Shown in pieces: positions 35,616 to 44,181 of a stretch of DNA of 64,000 nucleotides. A model generated the notes under the pieces. The model had not been told where the DNA came from. It worked only from the letters and a program-made list of their open reading frames with translations, and ran no database searches. A program made the translations under genes and the position numbers. The DNA is from Streptomyces zhihengii (GTDB lineage Bacteria > Actinomycetota > Actinomycetes > Streptomycetales > Streptomycetaceae): contig NZ_JAFEJA010000002.1 of assembly GCF_016919245.1 (NCBI RefSeq), positions 994,501 to 1,058,500 of the forward strand. Direction: 5' to 3'. Position 1 is the first letter of the stretch; every line of letters starts with the position of its first letter.

Positions 35616-37094
35616 CTACTCCACGGGCCAGGTGTGGGCCGGGGCGTTGAGGTGCATGTAGTCGAGGTACTGGCGGGTCATCAGGCGCAGCGCCTCCTGC
35701 GGCCCGACCCGGCTGGTGCGGTCGATGTGGTGGAACATCTCAGCCTGCCACACCGCCCCGTTGCGCCCGGTGACGCACCGCTGCTCGATGACGCCGAGCA
35801 GCGGCTCGCGCCAGGGCGCGTCCATCCCGGAGACCTCCAGGCCCCGGTGGGCCAGCGGCAGCAGGCGGCGCAGCACCAGTTCGGCCACCGGCACCTCGCC
35901 CATGCCCGGCCAGTACAGACGGGCGTCGATCCCGTGCCGGGCCGCCGCGTGCAGGTTGTCCTCCGCGGCCTGGAACGACATCCGCGACCACACGGGGCGC
36001 TCCTCGTCCACCAGGGCGCGTGTCAGACCGTAGTAGAAGGCCCCGTTGGCGAGGATGTCGGCCACCGTCGGCCCGGCGGGCAGCACCCGGTTCTCGATCC
36101 GCAGGTGCGGCTTGCCCTGGTCCACGGCGTAGACCGGGCGGTTCCAGCGGTAGATCGTCCCGTTGTGCAGCGTCAGTTCGGCGAGGTGGGGCGTGTCGCC
36201 CCCGTCCAGGGTCTCCTTCGGGTCCTCGTCGTCGCAGAGCGGCAGCAGGGCCGGGAAGTAGCGCAGGTTCTCCTCGAACAGGTCGAAGACGCTGTTGATC
36301 CAGCGCTCGCCGAACCAGACGCGCGGGCGCACGCCCTGCACCTTGAGTTCGTCGGGACGGGTGTCGGTCGCCTGCTCGAAGAGCGGGACACGGGTCTCGC
36401 GCCACAGCTCCTTGCCGAACAGGAACGGCGCGTTGGCCGCGAGCGCCACCTGCACCCCGGCGATCGCCTGCGCCGCGTTCCAGTACGCCGCGAACCGGTC
36501 GGGCGAGACCTGGAGGTGGAACTGGGTGCTGGTGCAGGCCGCCTCGGGCGTGATGGTGTCGGCGTACGTCCGCAGCCGCTCCACCCCGTCGATCTCGATG
36601 CGCAGGTCCTCGCCGCGCGCCGCGAACACCTGCTCGTTCAGCAGGTGGTAGCGGGGGTTCTCGGAGAGGGCGGCGGCGCCGACGTGGTCGCGGCGCAGGG
36701 TCGGCAGGATGCCGACCATCGCCAGGTGCGCGCCGACGTCCGCGGCCCGCCGCTCGGCGTGGTTGAGGGCGTCGCGGATCTCCTGCTCCCAGGAGTCCGG
36801 GCCGCCCGCGGTGAGCTGCCGCGGGGAGATGTTGATCTCCAGGTTGAACCGGCCGAGTTCGCTGTCCCACGCGGGGTCGGCGATGGCCTCCAGCACGTCG
36901 GTGCTCCGCATCGCGGGCTCGCCCGAGCTGTCGACCAGGTTCAGTTCGATCTCCAGGCCCACCTGGGGGCGCTCGAACTCGAAACGGGCTTCGCGCAGCA
37001 TCTGCGCGAAGGTGTCCAGGCACGACTGCATCTTGGTGCGGTAGCGGCGGCGGTCGTCACGGGTGAACACCAGCGCCGGGACGTCACGTCCCAT
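35616..37094 (-). CDS. Glutamate-cysteine-ligase-type enzyme (GCS2 family)
   Basis: The 492-residue protein belongs to the GCS2/YbdK-type carboxylate-amine ligases that make gamma-glutamyl bonds using ATP. Characteristic elements are VGLEIELNLVDSSGEP (about 46-61), FNLEINISPRQL, and the late PHLRIENRVLPAGPTVADILAN. Actinomycetes use mycothiol, not glutathione, so the physiological substrate is open; it need not be cysteine. The ATG at 37094 has GGGAGG upstream. The protein is monocistronic. The MITE-like element lies 124 bp beyond its start. Confidence 0.88.
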   Translation of the reverse strand: MGRDVPALVFTRDDRRRYRTKMQSCLDTFAQMLREARFEFERPQVGLEIELNLVDSSGEPAMRSTDVLEAIADPAWDSELGRFNLEINISPRQLTAGGPDSWEQEIRDALNHAERRAADVGAHLAMVGILPTLRRDHVGAAALSENPRYHLLNEQVFAARGEDLRIEIDGVERLRTYADTITPEAACTSTQFHLQVSPDRFAAYWNAAQAIAGVQVALAANAPFLFGKELWRETRVPLFEQATDTRPDELKVQGVRPRVWFGERWINSVFDLFEENLRYFPALLPLCDDEDPKETLDGGDTPHLAELTLHNGTIYRWNRPVYAVDQGKPHLRIENRVLPAGPTVADILANGAFYYGLTRALVDEERPVWSRMSFQAAEDNLHAAARHGIDARLYWPGMGEVPVAELVLRRLLPLAHRGLEVSGMDAPWREPLLGVIEQRCVTGRNGAVWQAEMFHHIDRTSRVGPQEALRLMTRQYLDYMHLNAPAHTWPVE

Positions 37095-37217
37095 CCGTCC
37101 TCCCGGGTCGTCGGGCAGACACCCCCGTCTCAGCGTGCCACTCACCGGCGGCCGCTACCAGCGAGGGGAGCGGGGGCGACGGTGTGCGCCCGTCCGGTCA
37201 CCCGCCGTCCGGCCCTA

Positions 37218-37419
37218 GGCCTTGTCTGACAAATGGCGCCGTCCGCCCGCAGGGCGGGGCGCGCGGCGTCCGGTGCGTGCAATCGCAAGGCGGAGGATCA
37301 TCCTCGTACTGGGCGTACTCGGATGACTCCGACAACGCGGCATGGGGGTACCTCCCAGCGGTAGCTGGGGGAGTGCGTGCCGGGCGTCGCGCGCCAGGCG
37401 GGATTTGTCAGACACGGCC
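37218..37419. mobile_element. MITE-like element (about 200 bp, no transposase)
   Basis: The ends are inverted repeats: left GGCCTTGTCTGACAAAT and right ATTTGTCAGACACGGCC. Between them lies an internal hairpin, CTCCCAGC-GGTA-GCTGGGGGAG. Very similar sequences occur in many Streptomyces genomes, from memory, as non-autonomous remnants of an IS element. A 66-codon open frame on the minus strand spans it but looks spurious. No clear target-site duplication can be seen. Confidence 0.75.
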
Positions 37420-37434
37420 CAGGCCCGGGCGGGC

Positions 37435-37947
37435 TCACTCGCCGCGGCGCCGGAGGAGGCCGCGGACGAAGGCCGCCTGGCCGGCGTGCTGGAGGTCGTC
37501 CGAGATCACGCTGACCAGGCGGACCCCCAGGGTGACCGGCGGTGTCCAGGAGGCGTCCACGACCCGGTCGAGGGCGTCGGCGTCGAGGGTGCGGAGGTGG
37601 CGCAGGGTGGCGGCGTGCACGGCGTCGTGGTAGCCGAGCAGCTCGCCGGCGCCGGCCCGTACAGCGGCGACGTCCTCGGCCGTGTGCCCGTACCCGGTCG
37701 CCGCCGGCGGGAAGGGCAGCGCGAACCGCTCGGCCCACCCGTCGGCCGTCCACACCTGCTCGGTCCCCGCGGCGCCGGCGAGATGGTCGTCCTGGATCCG
37801 GGTCAGGTGCCAGACGAGCCAGGCGATGGTGTTGCCGCCCGGGTCGGGCCGCGCGGCCAGGTCGTCCGCCGACAGGCCCTCGACGGTGTCGTGCACCACC
37901 TCGCGCACCCGGTCGAAGGCATCCGTCAGCAGGTCGGCGCTGTCCAT
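37435..37947 (-). CDS. DinB/DUF664 family protein
   Basis: This 170-residue four-helix protein belongs to the DinB/DUF664 superfamily, whose actinobacterial members are often mycothiol-dependent hydrolases or transferases. Likely metal or thiol-site histidines are seen in IAWLVWHLTRIQDDHLAG (about 41-58) and in ISDDLQHAGQAAFVRGLL near the C-terminus. The MITE-like element ends 15 bp after the stop codon. The ATG at 37947 starts MDSADLLTDAFDRVREVV. It is divergent from the HTH/Clp-N operon. Confidence 0.88.
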   Translation of the reverse strand: MDSADLLTDAFDRVREVVHDTVEGLSADDLAARPDPGGNTIAWLVWHLTRIQDDHLAGAAGTEQVWTADGWAERFALPFPPAATGYGHTAEDVAAVRAGAGELLGYHDAVHAATLRHLRTLDADALDRVVDASWTPPVTLGVRLVSVISDDLQHAGQAAFVRGLLRRRGE

Positions 37948-38032
37948 GGTCCGCTCCTCGGTCGTGTCCGCCCCATGGTGCCGCCCGGGGGGCCGCCGGG
38001 CGGGCGGACACGCCAGGGCGGGCCTTCACCGT

Positions 38033-38050
38033 TGTCAATGAAGGTTGACG
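38033..38050. promoter_or_regulatory. Palindromic operator, copy 1
   Basis: TGTCAATGAAGGTTGACG is a near-perfect TGTCAA-N6-TTGACA palindrome and matches copy 2, 27 bp downstream, at 15 of 18 positions. It probably binds the HTH protein encoded just after it. Confidence 0.7.
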
Positions 38051-38059
38051 CGTCAGAGG

Positions 38060-38077
38060 TGTCAATGTACGTTGACA
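38060..38077. promoter_or_regulatory. Palindromic operator, copy 2
   Basis: TGTCAATGTACGTTGACA is a perfect TGTCAA-N6-TTGACA palindrome ending two bases before the ATG of the HTH gene. With copy 1 it forms a paired operator and suggests autoregulation. Confidence 0.75.
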
Positions 38078-38079
38078 TC

Positions 38080-38289
38080 ATGACCGAAGCAACCGATCTC
38101 GCCGAGCGGGCGGGCGACCGGGACCCCCGGATCGGGCTGAGGGCCGTCGCCGCGCTGCGCCGGCTGCTGGAGCAGCTCGAGTCCGTCCAGGTCCGCAGCG
38201 CCCGCAACCAGGGCTGGTCCTGGCAGGACATCGCGGCGGAGCTCGGCGTCAGCCGGCAGGCCGTACACAAGAAGCACGGGAGGCAGTGA
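38080..38289 (+). CDS. Small HTH regulator coupled to a Clp-N protein
   Basis: The 69-residue protein has a C-terminal helix-turn-helix (SWQDIAAELGVSRQAVHKKHG) after a helix (RIGLRAVAALRRLLEQLESVQVRSARNQG). The ATG at 38080 lies immediately after the twin palindromes, so the leader is very short or absent. Its TGA overlaps the ATG of the Clp-N gene by one base, meaning the two are made together. It is a plausible autorepressor. Pairs of this kind occur in several actinomycetes, but I know of no experimental study. Confidence 0.85.
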   Translation: MTEATDLAERAGDRDPRIGLRAVAALRRLLEQLESVQVRSARNQGWSWQDIAAELGVSRQAVHKKHGRQ

Positions 38290-38861
38290 TGTTCGAACGC
38301 TTCACCGGGGAGGCCCGGGCCGTGGTGACCGGTGCGGTCGCCCGCTGCCGGCGGACCGGCGAACCCCGCGTCACCGACGAGCATCTGCTGCTCGCCCTGC
38401 TGGACATGACGGAGGGGCGGGCGGCGTTCGTCCTGCGGGCCCTCGGTGCGGCCGACCGGCGCGAGGGGCTGGAGGCCGCGCTGGCCGGGGCCCGGCGCCG
38501 CGGCGGGATGACCGCGGCCGACGAGCGGGCGCTCGCCGGGCTCGGCGTCGACGTGGACCGGATCGTCGCACGGGTCGAGGAGGCGCACGGCGAGGGCGCC
38601 CTCGCCGCCTTCCCGGCCCCCCGCCGCCCGCGCTCCGGGCACCGGCCCTTCACCCGCGAGGCGAAGGGCGTCCTGGAGCGGTCGCTGCGGATCGCCGTCG
38701 GCCGGCGCGACCGGGCCATCGGGTCGGAGCACCTGCTGCTGGCGCTCGCCGCCCGGCCGGGCGTGGTCGCGGAGGTGCTCGCGGACCACGGGGTGACCTA
38801 CGGATCCGTCGAGCGGGTCGCCTTCGGAGCGGGGAACGCCCCGCCGGCTCAGGCGGGTTGA
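38289..38861 (+). CDS. Two-repeat Clp N-domain protein lacking an ATPase
   Basis: The 190-residue protein consists of two Clp N-terminal repeats (about 1-70, FERFTGEARAVVTGAVARCRRTGEPRVTDEHLLLALLD, and 115-180, PFTREAKGVLERSLRIAVGRRDRAIGSEHLLLALAA) without the ATPase modules of ClpA/ClpC. In Clp chaperones this domain binds adaptors and substrates, so the protein could act as a decoy or adaptor for ClpC, or sequester damaged proteins. The ATG at 38289 has GGGAGG upstream and overlaps the previous stop by one base. The frame also contains a GTG three bases earlier. Confidence 0.87.
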   Translation: MFERFTGEARAVVTGAVARCRRTGEPRVTDEHLLLALLDMTEGRAAFVLRALGAADRREGLEAALAGARRRGGMTAADERALAGLGVDVDRIVARVEEAHGEGALAAFPAPRRPRSGHRPFTREAKGVLERSLRIAVGRRDRAIGSEHLLLALAARPGVVAEVLADHGVTYGSVERVAFGAGNAPPAQAG

Positions 38862-39176
38862 CACTTTCCCGGGGCCCCGCCGTTGAGTGGAGTGCGTGCC
38901 GCACACCGCTCGACGACGGGGCCTTTCTTGTGTTTCGCGACTTTTGTCGTGTCATCTGCGTCACGTCATGGCCAAAACTTGAAACCCTCACGGCCTGTGG
39001 TGCGTCTGTCTGGATGGCACCGGCGGGGCATGTCACCGCCGATGCAGATGTTCGGATCCGAAGGTCTTTCCGTGAAGAGCTTTCACAGTGTCACTCTGTG
39101 TGGTGAAACTGTGGCGACCTCGCCACGTACCGTCATGAAGCCCGGGCTGCCGCGCGGGCAGGGGAGGAAACCAGCG
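38862..39176. other. Long leader region before the graspetide precursor gene
   Basis: This 315-bp stretch is AT-richer than its surroundings (CTTTCTTGTGTTTCG, CAAAACTTGAAACCC). It holds a CACAG-N7-CTGTG inverted repeat near 39087-39103 and a TTGAAA hexamer near 38980 that could be a -35 box. Open frames crossing it are not convincing, so it probably contains the promoter and an operator of the tgm operon. Confidence 0.5.
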
Positions 39177-39368
39177 ATGAAACCGTTCGCGTGGAACTAC
39201 GCACGGCCCGCCGAGCAGGCACCGGCCCTGACCGCGTACGCGTACGACGCGGCGCTCCAGCTGAACGTGCTCTCCGACGGCCGTCCCGCGATCGCCGACC
39301 GCGCCCTGATGGCCGCGGCCGGCACGACGACGTCCAAGGCCGGCTCCGCCACCCACTTCGACGACTGA
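39177..39368 (+). CDS. tgmA: Graspetide (ATP-grasp-modified RiPP) precursor
   Basis: This 63-residue peptide has the layout of the GRASP_targ family of precursors. A conserved leader opening (MKPFAWNYARP) precedes a hydrophobic leader helix and a C-terminal core, TTTSKAGSATHFDD (residues 50-63). In graspetides the ATP-grasp enzyme links Thr/Ser/Lys side chains to Asp/Glu side chains, so Thr50-52, Ser53 or Lys54 would be acceptors and Asp62 or Asp63 donors. The precursor gene lies 51 bp before its ATP-grasp partner. The ATG at 39177 follows GGGGAGGAAACC. Upstream extensions of the frame lack any sign of coding. Confidence 0.87.
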   Translation: MKPFAWNYARPAEQAPALTAYAYDAALQLNVLSDGRPAIADRALMAAAGTTTSKAGSATHFDD

Positions 39369-39419
39369 CCGGCCCGCCCCGATGAACGGACAGGCCACCG
39401 GCGGGACGGACCGCACTCC

Positions 39420-40352
39420 GTGACCGTACTGGTGCTGACGAGCGAACAGGACGTCACCGCGGACATGGTGGTGGCGCAACTGCACGAACTGGGCGTCCCG
39501 CTCGTCCGGTTCGACCCCGGCGACCTCCCCGGGGACGTCGCGCTGTCCGCCGAGTACGTACGCGGCGAGTTCCGCGGCTACCTGTCCACCGGCGGCCGGG
39601 TGGCGAGCGTCGAGGCGATGCGCTCGGTCTGGATCCGCAGGCCGGGCGAGGCCGCCGCGCACGCGCCCGATCCGTCCTCCTGGCTGACCGACGAGAGCAG
39701 CCACGCCCTGTACGGGATGCTCGACTCCACCGCCGCCCGCTGGATGAACCACCCCAGCGCGGCGGCCCGGGCACGCCGCAAACCGTGGCAGATGCGCCTC
39801 GCCCACCGCAGCGGCTTCCCCGTGCCCGCGACCCTGGTCACCACGTATCCCGCGATGGCCCGGAAGTTCGCCGAGCAGTACCGCCATGTCGTGGTGAAGT
39901 CCGTGTCCGGCAAGTCGCCCGGCGACCCGCCCATGGCCCTGCCCACGACCCTGGTCCCGCCCGACGCGGACTTCTCCGGGGTCGCCGCCGGCCCCACCCT
40001 GCTGCAGCGCTACATCGCCAAGGCCGCCGACATCCGGCTGACCAGCGTCGGCGGCACCCATCTCGCCGCACGCAAGACCGCCGAGGCCGGGCAGGTCGAC
40101 GGCCGCTTCGGCGACACCGGGCACACCTGGGAGCCCGTCGAGGTCCCCGTGCCCGTCGCCCGGGCCGTGGAGCGCTACACGAAGGAGGCGGAACTGGCCT
40201 ACGGGGCCTTCGACTTCGCCGAGGACGCCACCGGCACCTGGTGGTTCCTGGAGTGCAACCAGGGCGGCCAGTTCGGCTTCGTCGAGCTGGAGACCGGCCA
40301 GCCCATCGCCCGCACCGTCGCCGAGTGGCTCGCGGCCGACCCGACCGCCTGA
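39420..40352 (+). CDS. tgmB: ATP-grasp ribosomal peptide maturase
   Basis: The 310-residue enzyme matches the TgmB group of ATP-grasp ligases (SAV_5884-like), which form ester or amide rings on the precursor encoded just upstream. The N-terminal domain runs from MTVLVLTSEQDVTADMVVAQL through FRGYLSTGGRVASVEAMRSVWIRRPG. The ATP-grasp part contains VVVKSVSGKSPGDPP, LLQRYIAKAADIRLTSVGG, and the metal-binding WWFLECNQGGQFGFVE (Glu and Asn ligands). The GTG start at 39420 is immediately after a short gap. No methyltransferase (TgmC, isoaspartate methyltransferase-like) gene lies nearby, unlike many such clusters. Confidence 0.92.
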   Translation: MTVLVLTSEQDVTADMVVAQLHELGVPLVRFDPGDLPGDVALSAEYVRGEFRGYLSTGGRVASVEAMRSVWIRRPGEAAAHAPDPSSWLTDESSHALYGMLDSTAARWMNHPSAAARARRKPWQMRLAHRSGFPVPATLVTTYPAMARKFAEQYRHVVVKSVSGKSPGDPPMALPTTLVPPDADFSGVAAGPTLLQRYIAKAADIRLTSVGGTHLAARKTAEAGQVDGRFGDTGHTWEPVEVPVPVARAVERYTKEAELAYGAFDFAEDATGTWWFLECNQGGQFGFVELETGQPIARTVAEWLAADPTA

Positions 40353-40376
40353 GGAGCCCGGGCGGACCGCGGGCCG

Positions 40377-40775
40377 CTACCGCCGCCCGCGGCGCCACTC
40401 CTCGACGACCGCGTCGGCGTCGTACGGCTTCAGGCCCAGCGGCGGCCCCGGCGGCGGGCGCAGCATCGCCGGGGTGATCCGCTCGTTGATCCGGGCGACG
40501 ATCCGCCGCACCGCGGCCTCGGAGGGGGCGCGCAGCGCCTCGGCCAGCGCGTCCTCCGCCTCCTTGCGCAGCGCGAGGGCCGGCGGCAGGACCGCCAGAC
40601 CCTCGCGGTGCATCTTGCCCTTGATCCACCACAGTTCGTCGTAGCCGCCCGGGTCCTCGGGCAGCGGCTTGCCGAACCCCGGCAGATCCTCGAACTCGCC
40701 GTTCTCGGTGGCCTGCCGGACCTGGCGGTCGACCCAGGACTCGAAGCTGACGCCGGGCGGTTTCCGTTCGGTCAT
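40377..40775 (-). CDS. DUF1992 (DnaJ-homologue subfamily C) protein
   Basis: This 132-residue soluble protein belongs to DUF1992. The diagnostic stretch is FESWVDRQVRQATENGEFEDLPGFGKPLPEDP (about 11-42), followed by WWIKGKMHREGL and INERITPAMLRPPPGPPLGLKPYD. The family is named DnaJ-like from eukaryotic homologues, but there is no J domain here and the role is unknown. The neighbouring tgm genes face the other way, and no link is obvious. Confidence 0.9.
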   Translation of the reverse strand: MTERKPPGVSFESWVDRQVRQATENGEFEDLPGFGKPLPEDPGGYDELWWIKGKMHREGLAVLPPALALRKEAEDALAEALRAPSEAAVRRIVARINERITPAMLRPPPGPPLGLKPYDADAVVEEWRRGRR

Positions 40776-40809
40776 GCCTCCCAGCGTAGCCCCGGGCCCG
40801 GGCGCCCGG

Positions 40810-42885
40810 TCAGCGCACGGTGAACGCGGCCGTCGACCCGCTGAAGGCGGTCACCCTGCCGAGCAGGCTCTTCCCGTCGCCGTGGTGCACGATCCGGTAC
40901 GTCCCCGGCGGCGTGCCCGGTGCGATCCGCCAGGTCAGGACCGCCTTGGAGGTGCCGAGCAGGCCGTTGATCCGCACCCACCGGTAGACGGTGTCCCAGT
41001 CGCCGTCGTCCAGCACCCGCACCCAGCGGCCGTCGACCTGCCGCTGGACCTCCAGGAAGGTGCCGCCCCGGCGCAGGTTGTTCTTCGGGTGCCCGGTCAC
41101 GAACTCCGCCGTCACCGTCGACCCCCGCGCATAGCTCTGGGCCGGTGCCGTGAGCACGTCGCCGAACGACCTGCCCGCCGGCGGGTTGTCCATCACGACG
41201 CCCGTCTGCAGCGTGATCTGCCCCGCCGAGTGGTCGGCCGGCAGCGGGCCGTGGTCCACCGGCGTGCCGGCGCGCATCGCCGCGGCCAGCGAGGCGAACT
41301 CCTGCTGGTACGCGGGCAGCGTGTGGCGCCCGTAGAGCGTCGAGCCCCCCTCGTACTGCTGGAGGTCGTACTCCTCGGGGGTCGTCACGTACTGGCTGTA
41401 GGCGTTCGCGTACCCCTGCATCAGCACGTTCTCCAGCGGCACGCCCAGCTCCGCCGCGACCGAGCGGCGGATCCGCAGCCCGGCCACCACCGTGTACTCG
41501 GCCGGCCCCGCCACCAGGTAGAACTGGCCGATCCGCATGATCTGCACGGGCAGCACGCTCGGGGTCGCCGGCACTACGGAGGACACCAGCCCGGTGGGCA
41601 CCAGGTTCGCCTTCGGGTACTGGCAGCCCACCAGCCACTCGGGCGGGTCGATGCGCAGCGGCTCCAGCAGCTTCGCCACCGGGCTGTTCATGCCCTCGGT
41701 GAAGCCCGGGATCGCCGGGCCGTCCTCCACACTGCCCGCCAGCGTCGACGCGCCGACCATCGCCGGGCAGGTCCGGTGCTCCCGCCCGTCGGGCGTGAAC
41801 CGGCCGTCGACGGTCACCTGCTCCATGTTCACGTACCGCAGCCGCGCGTCCACCCCGCCGGTCACCGGGACGGTGGCGCGGTCGTGGATCTCCTTGGCGC
41901 GGGTGTACTGCCGGTCGCCGATGATGCGGGTGTTCTCGAACTCGTCCTCGGTGGGCCCCGATCCCGGCTTGAGATTCAGATTCGGCGACATGTCACCGGC
42001 GTTGGTGTTCGGGAACGCGGCGACGAAGCCCTTGGCGTCGTCCAGGTAGCGCACGCCCTTGTCGTCGTGCTCCCACGCGTAGGACGCGTACCCCTTGTTG
42101 TCGGGGCTCAGCAGGGTGTTCTTGTTGGTGAGCGAGGTGTTGTGGGTGGCGAACCAGCTGATCGCGCCGACGTCGCTGCCGCCCTGGCGGAAGCGGAGCA
42201 CCGTCATCGCCGGGTCGATCCCGCCGGGGAACGCGGCCCGGTCCGCCGCCGGGTTCCGGTCGAACGCGGTCTTCGACCGGTTGACGCTGGCGTTCGTCAG
42301 CTCGCCCCGGCCCAGGCTGATGGTGCCCGGCTTCAGGTCCTCGTGCGCCTCGGCGACCGACTCGACGATGCCGTCCACGATGGCCCGGTAGGTGTCCTTC
42401 TGGAAGCCGAGCGACGCCAGGTTGTAGGCGATGTGGTGGGAGTGGCCGCCGGACCCGGCGTGGGTGTGGGTCGCCGACAGCAGCACGTTCCGCTCGCCGT
42501 AGAGCGAGCCGTAGCGCCGCCCCAGCTCGGCCAGGACGCCCTGGCGCACCGACTGGAAGATCATGCCCAGGTCCGCGTTGACGTAGACGACCCGGTTGCC
42601 GGCCGGGTCCGCGACGACGAACGCCCGTGAACGCTGGCGCTGATGGATGCCGGTGGCCTTCTGGTCGAAGCTGGAGTAGCCCATCATGCCGACCTCGGCC
42701 GCCTCGCCGGTCACATCGGCGATGCCGCGGCCGACCAGGTAGGCCGTGCCGTCCGGGGCGGCCTCGGGTGCCGCGGTCGCGGCGCCGGCGGGCGACGCGG
42801 CGGGCACGGCCGACAGGGTCAGGGCGCCGAGCGCCCCGGCGAGCAGCAGGGAGACCGCTCTCGCGCGCGTGGTGGGGGACCGCAT
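40810..42885 (-). CDS. Secreted neutral/alkaline ceramidase
   Basis: The 691-residue exported enzyme belongs to the neutral ceramidase family, which hydrolyses the N-acyl bond of ceramide. A signal peptide (residues 1-36, RAVSLLLAGALGALTLSAVPAASPAGA) precedes the catalytic region: GRGIADVTGEAAEVGMMGYSSFDQ, then the zinc-binding SATHTHAGSGGHSHH, and the active-site segment FPNTNAGDMSPN, which includes the expected catalytic Ser in NAGDMSPN. The C-terminal beta domain is GTFLEVQRQVDGRWVRVLDDGDWDTVYRW. The ATG at 42885 has GGGAG upstream. The gene stands alone and faces away from the AraC regulator. Ceramide here would come from eukaryotic hosts or competitors. Confidence 0.92.
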   Translation of the reverse strand: MRSPTTRARAVSLLLAGALGALTLSAVPAASPAGAATAAPEAAPDGTAYLVGRGIADVTGEAAEVGMMGYSSFDQKATGIHQRQRSRAFVVADPAGNRVVYVNADLGMIFQSVRQGVLAELGRRYGSLYGERNVLLSATHTHAGSGGHSHHIAYNLASLGFQKDTYRAIVDGIVESVAEAHEDLKPGTISLGRGELTNASVNRSKTAFDRNPAADRAAFPGGIDPAMTVLRFRQGGSDVGAISWFATHNTSLTNKNTLLSPDNKGYASYAWEHDDKGVRYLDDAKGFVAAFPNTNAGDMSPNLNLKPGSGPTEDEFENTRIIGDRQYTRAKEIHDRATVPVTGGVDARLRYVNMEQVTVDGRFTPDGREHRTCPAMVGASTLAGSVEDGPAIPGFTEGMNSPVAKLLEPLRIDPPEWLVGCQYPKANLVPTGLVSSVVPATPSVLPVQIMRIGQFYLVAGPAEYTVVAGLRIRRSVAAELGVPLENVLMQGYANAYSQYVTTPEEYDLQQYEGGSTLYGRHTLPAYQQEFASLAAAMRAGTPVDHGPLPADHSAGQITLQTGVVMDNPPAGRSFGDVLTAPAQSYARGSTVTAEFVTGHPKNNLRRGGTFLEVQRQVDGRWVRVLDDGDWDTVYRWVRINGLLGTSKAVLTWRIAPGTPPGTYRIVHHGDGKSLLGRVTAFSGSTAAFTVR

Positions 42886-43050
42886 GCCTGCTCCCTCGCG
42901 ATGCAGTGGGACAACGGGTGTGACCGACGGTAAGGGCGGTTCCCGGGCGGGGGAGAGGACCGGACCGGCCAGTAACGGGACTTCACCGGCCACGCCCCCT
43001 GTCCGCGGCCGTGCCGAATGCCTAAGGTGACGGGCCGGAGGAGAGATCAC

Positions 43051-44181
43051 ATGACCCGACCGTCACCGCCGCCGGCCGGCCTCGCCGATCCCCGGTACGG
43101 ATCGGCCACGATCACTCCGCACCTGCTGCGCTACCTCACCCTGGTCGCCGCCGAACGCGGCCACGACCTCGGGCCCGCGCTGCGCCGCGCCGGACTGAGC
43201 GAGGGCGCGCTGAGCGCGGTCGGCGGGCGGATCTCCTACCGCCAGGGCAGCAGCGTCATCCGGGAGGCGCTCGGCTCGCTCGGCGACCCGGCGCTCGGCC
43301 TCGCCGTCGGCCGCCGCCAACGGGTCACCGCGTGGGGGCTGGTGGGCTTCGGCCTGCTGGCCAGCCCCACCCTCGGCCACGCCCTCGACCTCGGGGTGCG
43401 CCACCACGGCGTGGCCGGCTCGATGCTGGACTACCGGATGGAGCCCGTGCCGGGCGGCGCGGCGGTCCTCGCGCGGGCCCGCTACACCGACTCGGGGCTG
43501 CGGGCCTTCCTGCTGGAGGAGGCGTTCGGCAGCATCGTCGCCCTGGTCCGGGACTCCCTGGACGGGGACTTCGCGCCCCGCGCGGTGGCCGTCCGGCACG
43601 CCCGGCCGTCCTACGGGGGCGCGTACGAGGAGTGGTTCCGCTGCCCGGTGCGCTTCGGCGCGGACGACGACCGGATCGAGTTCGGCGACGACTGGCTGCA
43701 CCGCCCCGTGCCGAGTGCCGACGCCTACGCGCTCGCGCAGGTCGTCCAGCTCCTCGACGCGGCCCGCACCCGGGGCCGGGAACGGCAGGACCTGGTGGAG
43801 GGCTTGGAGGTGTCGGTCGCCCGCGGTCTGCCGAGGGTGCCTCCCCTCGCGCAGCAGGCGCTCGCCCGGGGCATGAGCGAGCGCACGCTGCGCCGGCGGC
43901 TGGCCGGCCACGGCACCACGTACGAGGCCCTGGTCGACTCCGTACGCCTGGTGCGCGCCGAGGAGTTGCTGACCACCGGCGACCTGCCCCTGCATACCGT
44001 CGCAGGACTGCTGGGCTTCAGCGACGCCCGCACCCTGCGCCGCGCGGTGACCCGGTGGTTCGGCACCAGCCCCTCGGCGATCCGCCGGGCGGCCGGTGCC
44101 GCCCGGCCCCGTACCGTGCCCGCCGGCCTCAACGGCGCCGGTGGACCCGCAGATACTCCACGGCGTACGACATCTCCGTGA
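43051..44181 (+). CDS. AraC-family regulator with Arabinose_bd-like N-domain
   Basis: The 376-residue protein has an N-terminal domain of the OruR/ArgR-like AraC group (about 20-210, ITPHLLRYLTLVAAERGHDLGPALRRAGL) and a C-terminal AraC DNA-binding domain (about 240-355, MSERTLRRRLAGHGTTYEALVDSVRLVRAEELL and AGLLGFSDARTLRRAVTRWFGTSPSAIRR). The effector is unknown. It is divergent from the ceramidase and could control it, though nothing in the sequence proves that. The start at 43051 follows GGAGGAG. The final 53 bp overlap the end of the convergent GH16-like gene. Confidence 0.9.
   Translation: MTRPSPPPAGLADPRYGSATITPHLLRYLTLVAAERGHDLGPALRRAGLSEGALSAVGGRISYRQGSSVIREALGSLGDPALGLAVGRRQRVTAWGLVGFGLLASPTLGHALDLGVRHHGVAGSMLDYRMEPVPGGAAVLARARYTDSGLRAFLLEEAFGSIVALVRDSLDGDFAPRAVAVRHARPSYGGAYEEWFRCPVRFGADDDRIEFGDDWLHRPVPSADAYALAQVVQLLDAARTRGRERQDLVEGLEVSVARGLPRVPPLAQQALARGMSERTLRRRLAGHGTTYEALVDSVRLVRAEELLTTGDLPLHTVAGLLGFSDARTLRRAVTRWFGTSPSAIRRAAGAARPRTVPAGLNGAGGPADTPRRTTSP

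Follow-up and report, generated by a model that had tools for sequence, protein, structure and literature searches.

The gene pair and its surroundings

Within the window (the whole stretch of 64,000 nucleotides that was analysed), a short precursor gene is followed on the same strand by a gene for an ATP-grasp ligase, with a gap of 51 bases between the two, and the pair is preceded by a ribosome-binding-like stretch and a candidate promoter element. The features are the following:

39105..39129, + strand: putative ECF-sigma-like promoter, GAAAC at 39105-39109, then 16 bp, then CGTA at 39126-39129
39160..39169, + strand: ribosome-binding-like stretch aggggaggaa, 5' of the precursor; aggggagg is present in 10 of 11 aligned relatives
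39177..39368, + strand: graspetide precursor, PF14404 (Strep_pep), 63 residues, ATG start; leader MKPFAWNYARPA...LQLNVLSDGRPA...
39324..39365, + strand: core TTTSKAGSATHFDD, 14 residues; donors predicted at Thr2 and Lys5, acceptors at Asp13 and Asp14
39420..40352, + strand: ATP-grasp graspetide ligase, 310 residues, GTG start; TIGR04187, MvdD pre-ATP-grasp domain PF21068

The precursor matches the Pfam family PF14404 over its entire length (positions 1-63 of 63; 128.2 bits, 1.2e-37, cut-off 25) as well as the NCBIfam model TIGR04186 (53.3 bits, 2.2e-14, cut-off 25), and the ligase matches TIGR04187, the model for ATP-grasp ribosomal peptide maturases (374.2 bits, 4.7e-112, cut-off 350). These scores exclude chance as the source of the family matches. 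In other words, the arrangement that marks graspetide genes, namely a precursor gene adjoining an ATP-grasp ligase of the MvdC/MvdD kind (PF21068, TIGR04187), is found here, and the original prediction of a graspetide cassette with these two genes was correct. An alternative in-frame ATG for the precursor lies at 39135; the ribosome-binding-like site and the start typical of the family favour 39177. The core holds four Thr (positions 1, 2, 3 and 10), two Ser, one Lys and two Asp, so that the composition given earlier was right for the last three residues and one short for Thr.

The ligase also aligns, at 434 bits and over a part that includes the segment FLECNQGGQFGF, with PDB entry 9bou, an MvdD-like pre-ATP grasp domain-containing protein. 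The matched part of 9bou is 64.7% identical to the ligase described here and 99.4% identical to that of locus L026, which is the closest to 9bou in our set of relatives and adjoins a Strep_pep precursor. A literature search on the two terms 9BOU and graspetide found no paper joining them.

Pfam searches of the six flanking open reading frames (35616-44178) gave GCS2, mycothiol-S-transferase/DinB, Clp_N, DnaJ-C28, a (neutral) ceramidase and an AraC-type regulator, and among these six no methyltransferase or transporter adjoins the gene pair, just as had been claimed from the sequence. We considered the GCS2-like, Clp_N, DnaJ-C28, ceramidase and AraC genes as possible parts of the system and rejected them: none of them was found in more than 10 of the 141 sequences, a set that counts the window, and the flanking families recur solely near the closest relatives. 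When neighbour families were counted over 128 related loci with a rough open reading frame filter (at least 80 residues), the ligase was present in 122 and the next commonest family in 32. Since the flanking families recur so rarely, the cassette most likely consists of two genes. No Rfam RNA was found at the gathering threshold in 37500-43200. Taken as a whole, we are highly confident that these two genes form a complete graspetide system of the PF14404 (Strep_pep) family.

Methyltransferases and the extent of the family

Over the cut-offs, TIGR04187 identifies three ligases in the whole genome and TIGR04186 three precursors. The genome also yields 17 matches to the methyltransferase model TIGR04188, none of them within the window. 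Two of these exceed the cut-off of 380 (496 and 427 bits), and each lies directly 3' of a ligase of its own. The suggestion that the rest of the genome be searched for a TgmC homologue was therefore a fruitful one: homologues are present elsewhere, both as these two genes and as weaker matches. The latter include L003, L004, L005 and L006, at 221-261 bits. Two cassettes with the layout of graspimiditides (precursor, ligase, methyltransferase) can be recognised in the same genome, at 2098.7k-2101.0k of contig C2 and 468.2k-470.6k of contig C3.

In 30 of 30 Strep_pep loci with short flanks (approximately 0.5 kb downstream), fetched from a profile search within the same genus, precursor and ligase occur with no methyltransferase. 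In a set of 140 loci whose flanks extend to as much as 6 kb, where the queries were the two proteins of this genome and some loci run out at contig ends, a methyltransferase beside the Strep_pep ligase was found in none; 60 further stretches had been hand-picked from the list of the same profile search. A nearby methyltransferase occurs in one of the 140 (L155, Streptomyces samsunensis), 3' of a second, different ligase. In that locus, a separate ligase-methyltransferase cassette starts some 2 kb beyond the Strep_pep ligase. Among 23 cassettes of other kinds, again with short flanks, a methyltransferase is present in 19 and lacking in four (L217, L227, L229 and L231); for these 23, as for the 30 loci above, the two methyltransferases of this genome were likewise the queries. 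Because no sampled locus carries a methyltransferase beside its Strep_pep ligase, its absence is, as far as these comparisons reach, a property of the family and not a loss at this locus, and what had looked like an oddity becomes the family rule. For the same reason, calling the cassette "minimal", as was done in the original prediction, is misleading: two genes are the standard for this family. The notion of a three-gene cassette that has shed its methyltransferase was rejected on the same grounds.

Two of the rival explanations can be weighed at this point. It could be argued that the locus is a group 13 graspimiditide cassette whose methyltransferase has been lost or acts from elsewhere in the genome. 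In its favour, the two strong methyltransferases and several weaker ones lie in the same genome. Group 13 graspetides and graspimiditides (fuscimiditide, amycolimiditide, SsfA) have a related ATP-grasp ligase and a Pro-Phe or Pro-Trp motif in the leader. However, group 13 graspimiditides carry a PIMT-type methyltransferase together with a loop Asp for it, and the linked enzyme (TIGR04188) appears neither in the window nor beside the ligase at the 140 loci. Action in trans is unlikely as well, since both strong methyltransferases have cassettes of their own, and the ligase studied here is only 33-35% identical to the two ligases linked to them. What is more, a passage in PMC13003496 describes ThfM of fuscimiditide as recognising the bicyclic core. 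We therefore regard this explanation as very improbable. Even less probable, in our view, is that the locus is silent or decaying and yields no product. The system does seem to be broken at times, as in one relative (L126) whose precursor has its leader in one frame and its core in another, but here both frames are open, and the gene pair and the ribosome-binding-like stretch are conserved among relatives.

As to why the enzyme is absent, the two acids of the core, if they serve as ring acceptors, may leave no Asp for an aspartimide; under our proposal that both core Asp act as acceptors, a methyltransferase would be unnecessary. Exactly two acidic residues are found in the 14-residue core at 174 of 176 loci, and the window core has two as well. 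That said, the argument is weak in one respect, since it hinges on the choice of the first core residue, and counts over the last 30 residues of Strep_pep precursors (3-5 acids, with 5 in 104 of 176) lie little below the median of 6 for methyltransferase-linked precursors (n=18, with L235 dropped and L216, perhaps cut short, included).

Of 392 genomes of the same genus, 215 contain a PF14404 match above the cut-off, a number that rises to 219 when E <= 0.001 is the criterion; for a sample of 293 genomes from the order the corresponding figures are 144 and 148, the latter spread over two of nine genera. Such presence in the genus suggests that the peptide matters to these bacteria; the literature searched, in searches not aimed at role, gave no role for Strep_pep peptides. 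Judging by 80 of 438 relatives, the names are all Streptomyces save one Wenjunlia and one Actinacidiphila, and among the same 80 the nearest relative by ligase is Streptomyces sp. t39, at 95% identity. By its sequence, the system is an ordinary member of a known and common family, and it resembles other pairs of PF14404 precursors and TIGR04187 (GRASP_SAV_5884) ligases in its full-length profile match, gene order and form of the core. A passage in Makarova et al. 2022 (PMC8939145) lists Strep_pep among precursor families dating to a 2009 analysis. Four weak PF14404 matches (L202-L205) were taken as chance, for they have no adjoining ligase and three of the four resemble protein kinases.

It had also been stated that the products of such short cassettes are largely unknown. 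This was an overstatement: the structure of a sister ligase has been solved (9bou), and one product can be named as well. Prunipeptin of Streptomyces prunicolor (MIBiG BGC0002725) is made by two genes only, a precursor and a ligase, and is bicyclic, its rings being closed by an ester and an isopeptide bond. The window locus shares this layout without further enzymes, and the two likely belong to the same family, the comparison being one of layout. No S. prunicolor locus occurs among the 80 of 438 relatives, and the literature search gave no prunipeptin sequence. According to an excerpt of PMC11888242, the prunipeptin cluster family has 3,589 members, 99.53% of them in Streptomyces.

Core variation and the proposed rings

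The core was followed through 197 matches, which represent 176 distinct DNA sequences, collected with the pattern AGSxxHxDD, so that positions 6, 7, 8, 11, 13 and 14 are constant by construction; in addition, the counts are not independent, since related species contribute many of the loci and the collections overlap. Most members conform to the consensus GTTTS[TK]AGS[KQA]THFDD. The remaining positions, over the 176 distinct loci, hold the following residues:

Position 1: T 156, A 11, S 7, P 1, L 1
Position 2: T 175, S 1
Position 3: T 168, A 3, V 2, C 2, Q 1
Position 4: S 176
Position 5: T 162, K 13, S 1
Position 9: K 117, A 30, Q 29
Position 10: T 175, V 1 (Val in one divergent member)
Position 12: F 174, D 1, R 1

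Ser at positions 2 and 5 is due to L206 and L200, two divergent precursors found in a single genome. A looser search returned 133 cores, all of them with AGS and THFDD and thus with Ser8 in 133 of 133; it missed eight of 141 sequences, of which seven were recovered by eye with the same AGS and THFDD and the eighth was the frameshifted L126.

The pairings of positions 5 and 9 (n=175) are T/K in 116, T/Q in 26, T/A in 19, K/A in 11, K/Q in 2 and S/K in 1, so a core Lys is found at 5 or at 9, never at both. In 46 of 176 cores there is no Lys at all, and in those members an isopeptide bond from a core Lys is impossible. The window carries the K5/A9 type, a minority of 11 in 176 that sets it apart from most PF14404/TIGR04187 members, and 9bou groups with T5/K9 members, unlike the window copy. 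On a FastTree ligase tree, from which L099 was excluded for its short ligase match, position 5 has changed at least five times, once to Ser, and position 9 at least six times. Well-supported branches alone force fewer changes at position 5, two for K5/Q9 and one for K5/A9; two K5 members are separate on the tree, each inside a T5/Q9 group. Among the codons at position 5 there are 12 AAG for the 13 Lys, and two codons are odd. When ligase columns were compared with K5, 22 had changed in at least two of the four K5 lineages and none in all four, and in columns 23, 156, 187, 246, 252 and 298 the same residue had been reached in two K5 lineages; these comparisons carry no control, and we claim nothing from them.

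The original prediction held that the ring topology of the core could not be guessed, which was too pessimistic. In particular, with only two Asp in the core there can be no more than two side-chain acceptors. As donors, positions 2 and 5 are likelier than the others, since position 5 takes T, K or S only, the three residues able to act as graspetide donors, and position 2 T or S only, while Thr1, Thr3 and Lys9 are dispensable. The neighbouring positions 1 and 3 also take A, P, L, V, Q or C. We propose that the leader (MKPFAWNY... and the LQLNVLxDGRxA segment) would dock the precursor on the ligase, which would use ATP to phosphorylate the side chains of Asp13 and Asp14; two donors would then attack with the loss of two waters (-36 Da). 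With Thr2 as the ester donor and Lys5 as the isopeptide donor, the peptide would become bicyclic through a lactone and a lactam; its leader would be removed, and it would be exported, through unlinked genes. The connectivity, the number of links, leader proteolysis, export and any activity are all inferred, and to the specific assignment of Thr2 and Lys5, linked to Asp13 and Asp14, we would give roughly even weight. A likeness in its favour comes from Gra-4, another graspetide, for which a portion of PMC9576775 describes a Thr and a Lys three apart that are linked to an Asp pair, TxxKxxDD; the spacing of three is that of Thr2 and Lys5, although in Gra-4 the motif is repeated and two residues separate Lys from DD, as opposed to seven in the window core.

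The main alternative keeps the same two-gene graspetide with other donors, for instance Ser8 or Thr10 together with Thr2, Ser4 or Lys5, which would give a dilactone or a different lactam, and we take it seriously, at somewhat less than even weight. Ser4 (176 of 176) and Thr10 (175 of 176) are conserved as strictly as the proposed donors, and Ser8, fixed by the search pattern in the main set, may be so too, given the looser search. Moreover, outside the graspimiditides the loops are usually of 3 or 4 residues, as stated in a passage of PMC12291112, and by this analogy Ser8 or Lys9 to Asp13 would fit better than the loop of seven implied by Thr2 and Lys5. On the other hand, Ser4 and Ser8 are never replaced by Thr or Lys, as opposed to the donor-like exchanges at positions 5 and 2, and Thr10 gives way to Val in the divergent member. 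Where Lys9 is present, in 117 of 176 cores, it may itself be the donor. A third link through the C-terminal carboxylate may also be formed, by analogy with SsfA, which, according to an excerpt of PMC10787088, seems to link in this way.

Returning to the assignment of Thr2 and Lys5, the variation of the core turns ring topology into a prediction that can be tested by mass spectrometry. The C-terminal tryptic peptide ALMAAAGTTTSKAGSATHFDD has a calculated [M+H]+ of 2023.94 when unmodified, 2005.93 after loss of one water and 1987.92 after loss of two. A cut after Lys5 in this peptide would give ALMAAAGTTTSK, with a calculated mass of 1122.58; trypsin does not cleave at a Lys held in an isopeptide bond.

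The upstream element and divergent relatives

The candidate promoter element ends 47 bases before the start codon of the precursor. In its strict form, GAAAC-N16/17-CGTA, the pattern occurs in 76 of 176 upstream regions, its carriers being mostly close relatives, as compared with one occurrence on the reverse strand and a mean of 0.65 in 20 first-order Markov shuffles; it should be noted that the pattern was picked after viewing the sequences. With 36 ligase clusters weighted and one mismatch in GAAAC allowed, the count is 15.1, as against 1.3 in shuffles (maximum 4), and half of the clusters (18 of 36) lack the pattern in every member. A part of a study of sigma-E (PMC6767563) describes spacers of 16 or 17 bp and sites with GGAAC-like and CGTC/CGTA boxes, and by analogy we infer that an ECF sigma factor may read the element. 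In the T5/K9 group, the upstream stretch around CGTTCGATTCGTATAAG hardly varies over 70 sites, and an inverted repeat TTTCAC/GTGAAA is also seen upstream.

A more far-reaching reading, possible but on balance doubtful, is that a family found in more than half of the genomes of the genus makes at least two chemical versions of one scaffold, with Lys at position 5, at position 9 or nowhere, with a lactone and a lactam or lactones throughout, by means of closely similar ligases and under an ECF-sigma promoter. Were this true, the promoter would suggest a function in stress or development more than one as an antibiotic, and the change from Thr to Lys at position 5 would amount to a natural experiment in replacing an ester by an amide.

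Two divergent cases among the relatives deserve mention. In L126 (Streptomyces sp. ISL-100, with the same precursor as L201), a ligase lies alongside the precursor whose leader and core are in different frames, which may be a lesion or a sequencing error. In genome G303, on contig 15, two divergent precursors (L200 and L206) with the cores GPTQSSAGSKTHDDDTD and PLSTSTAGSKVHRDDDDHEYVH stand in tandem before one ligase. This ligase is 49% identical to that of the window, and the locus is possibly an outlying branch with extra Asp.
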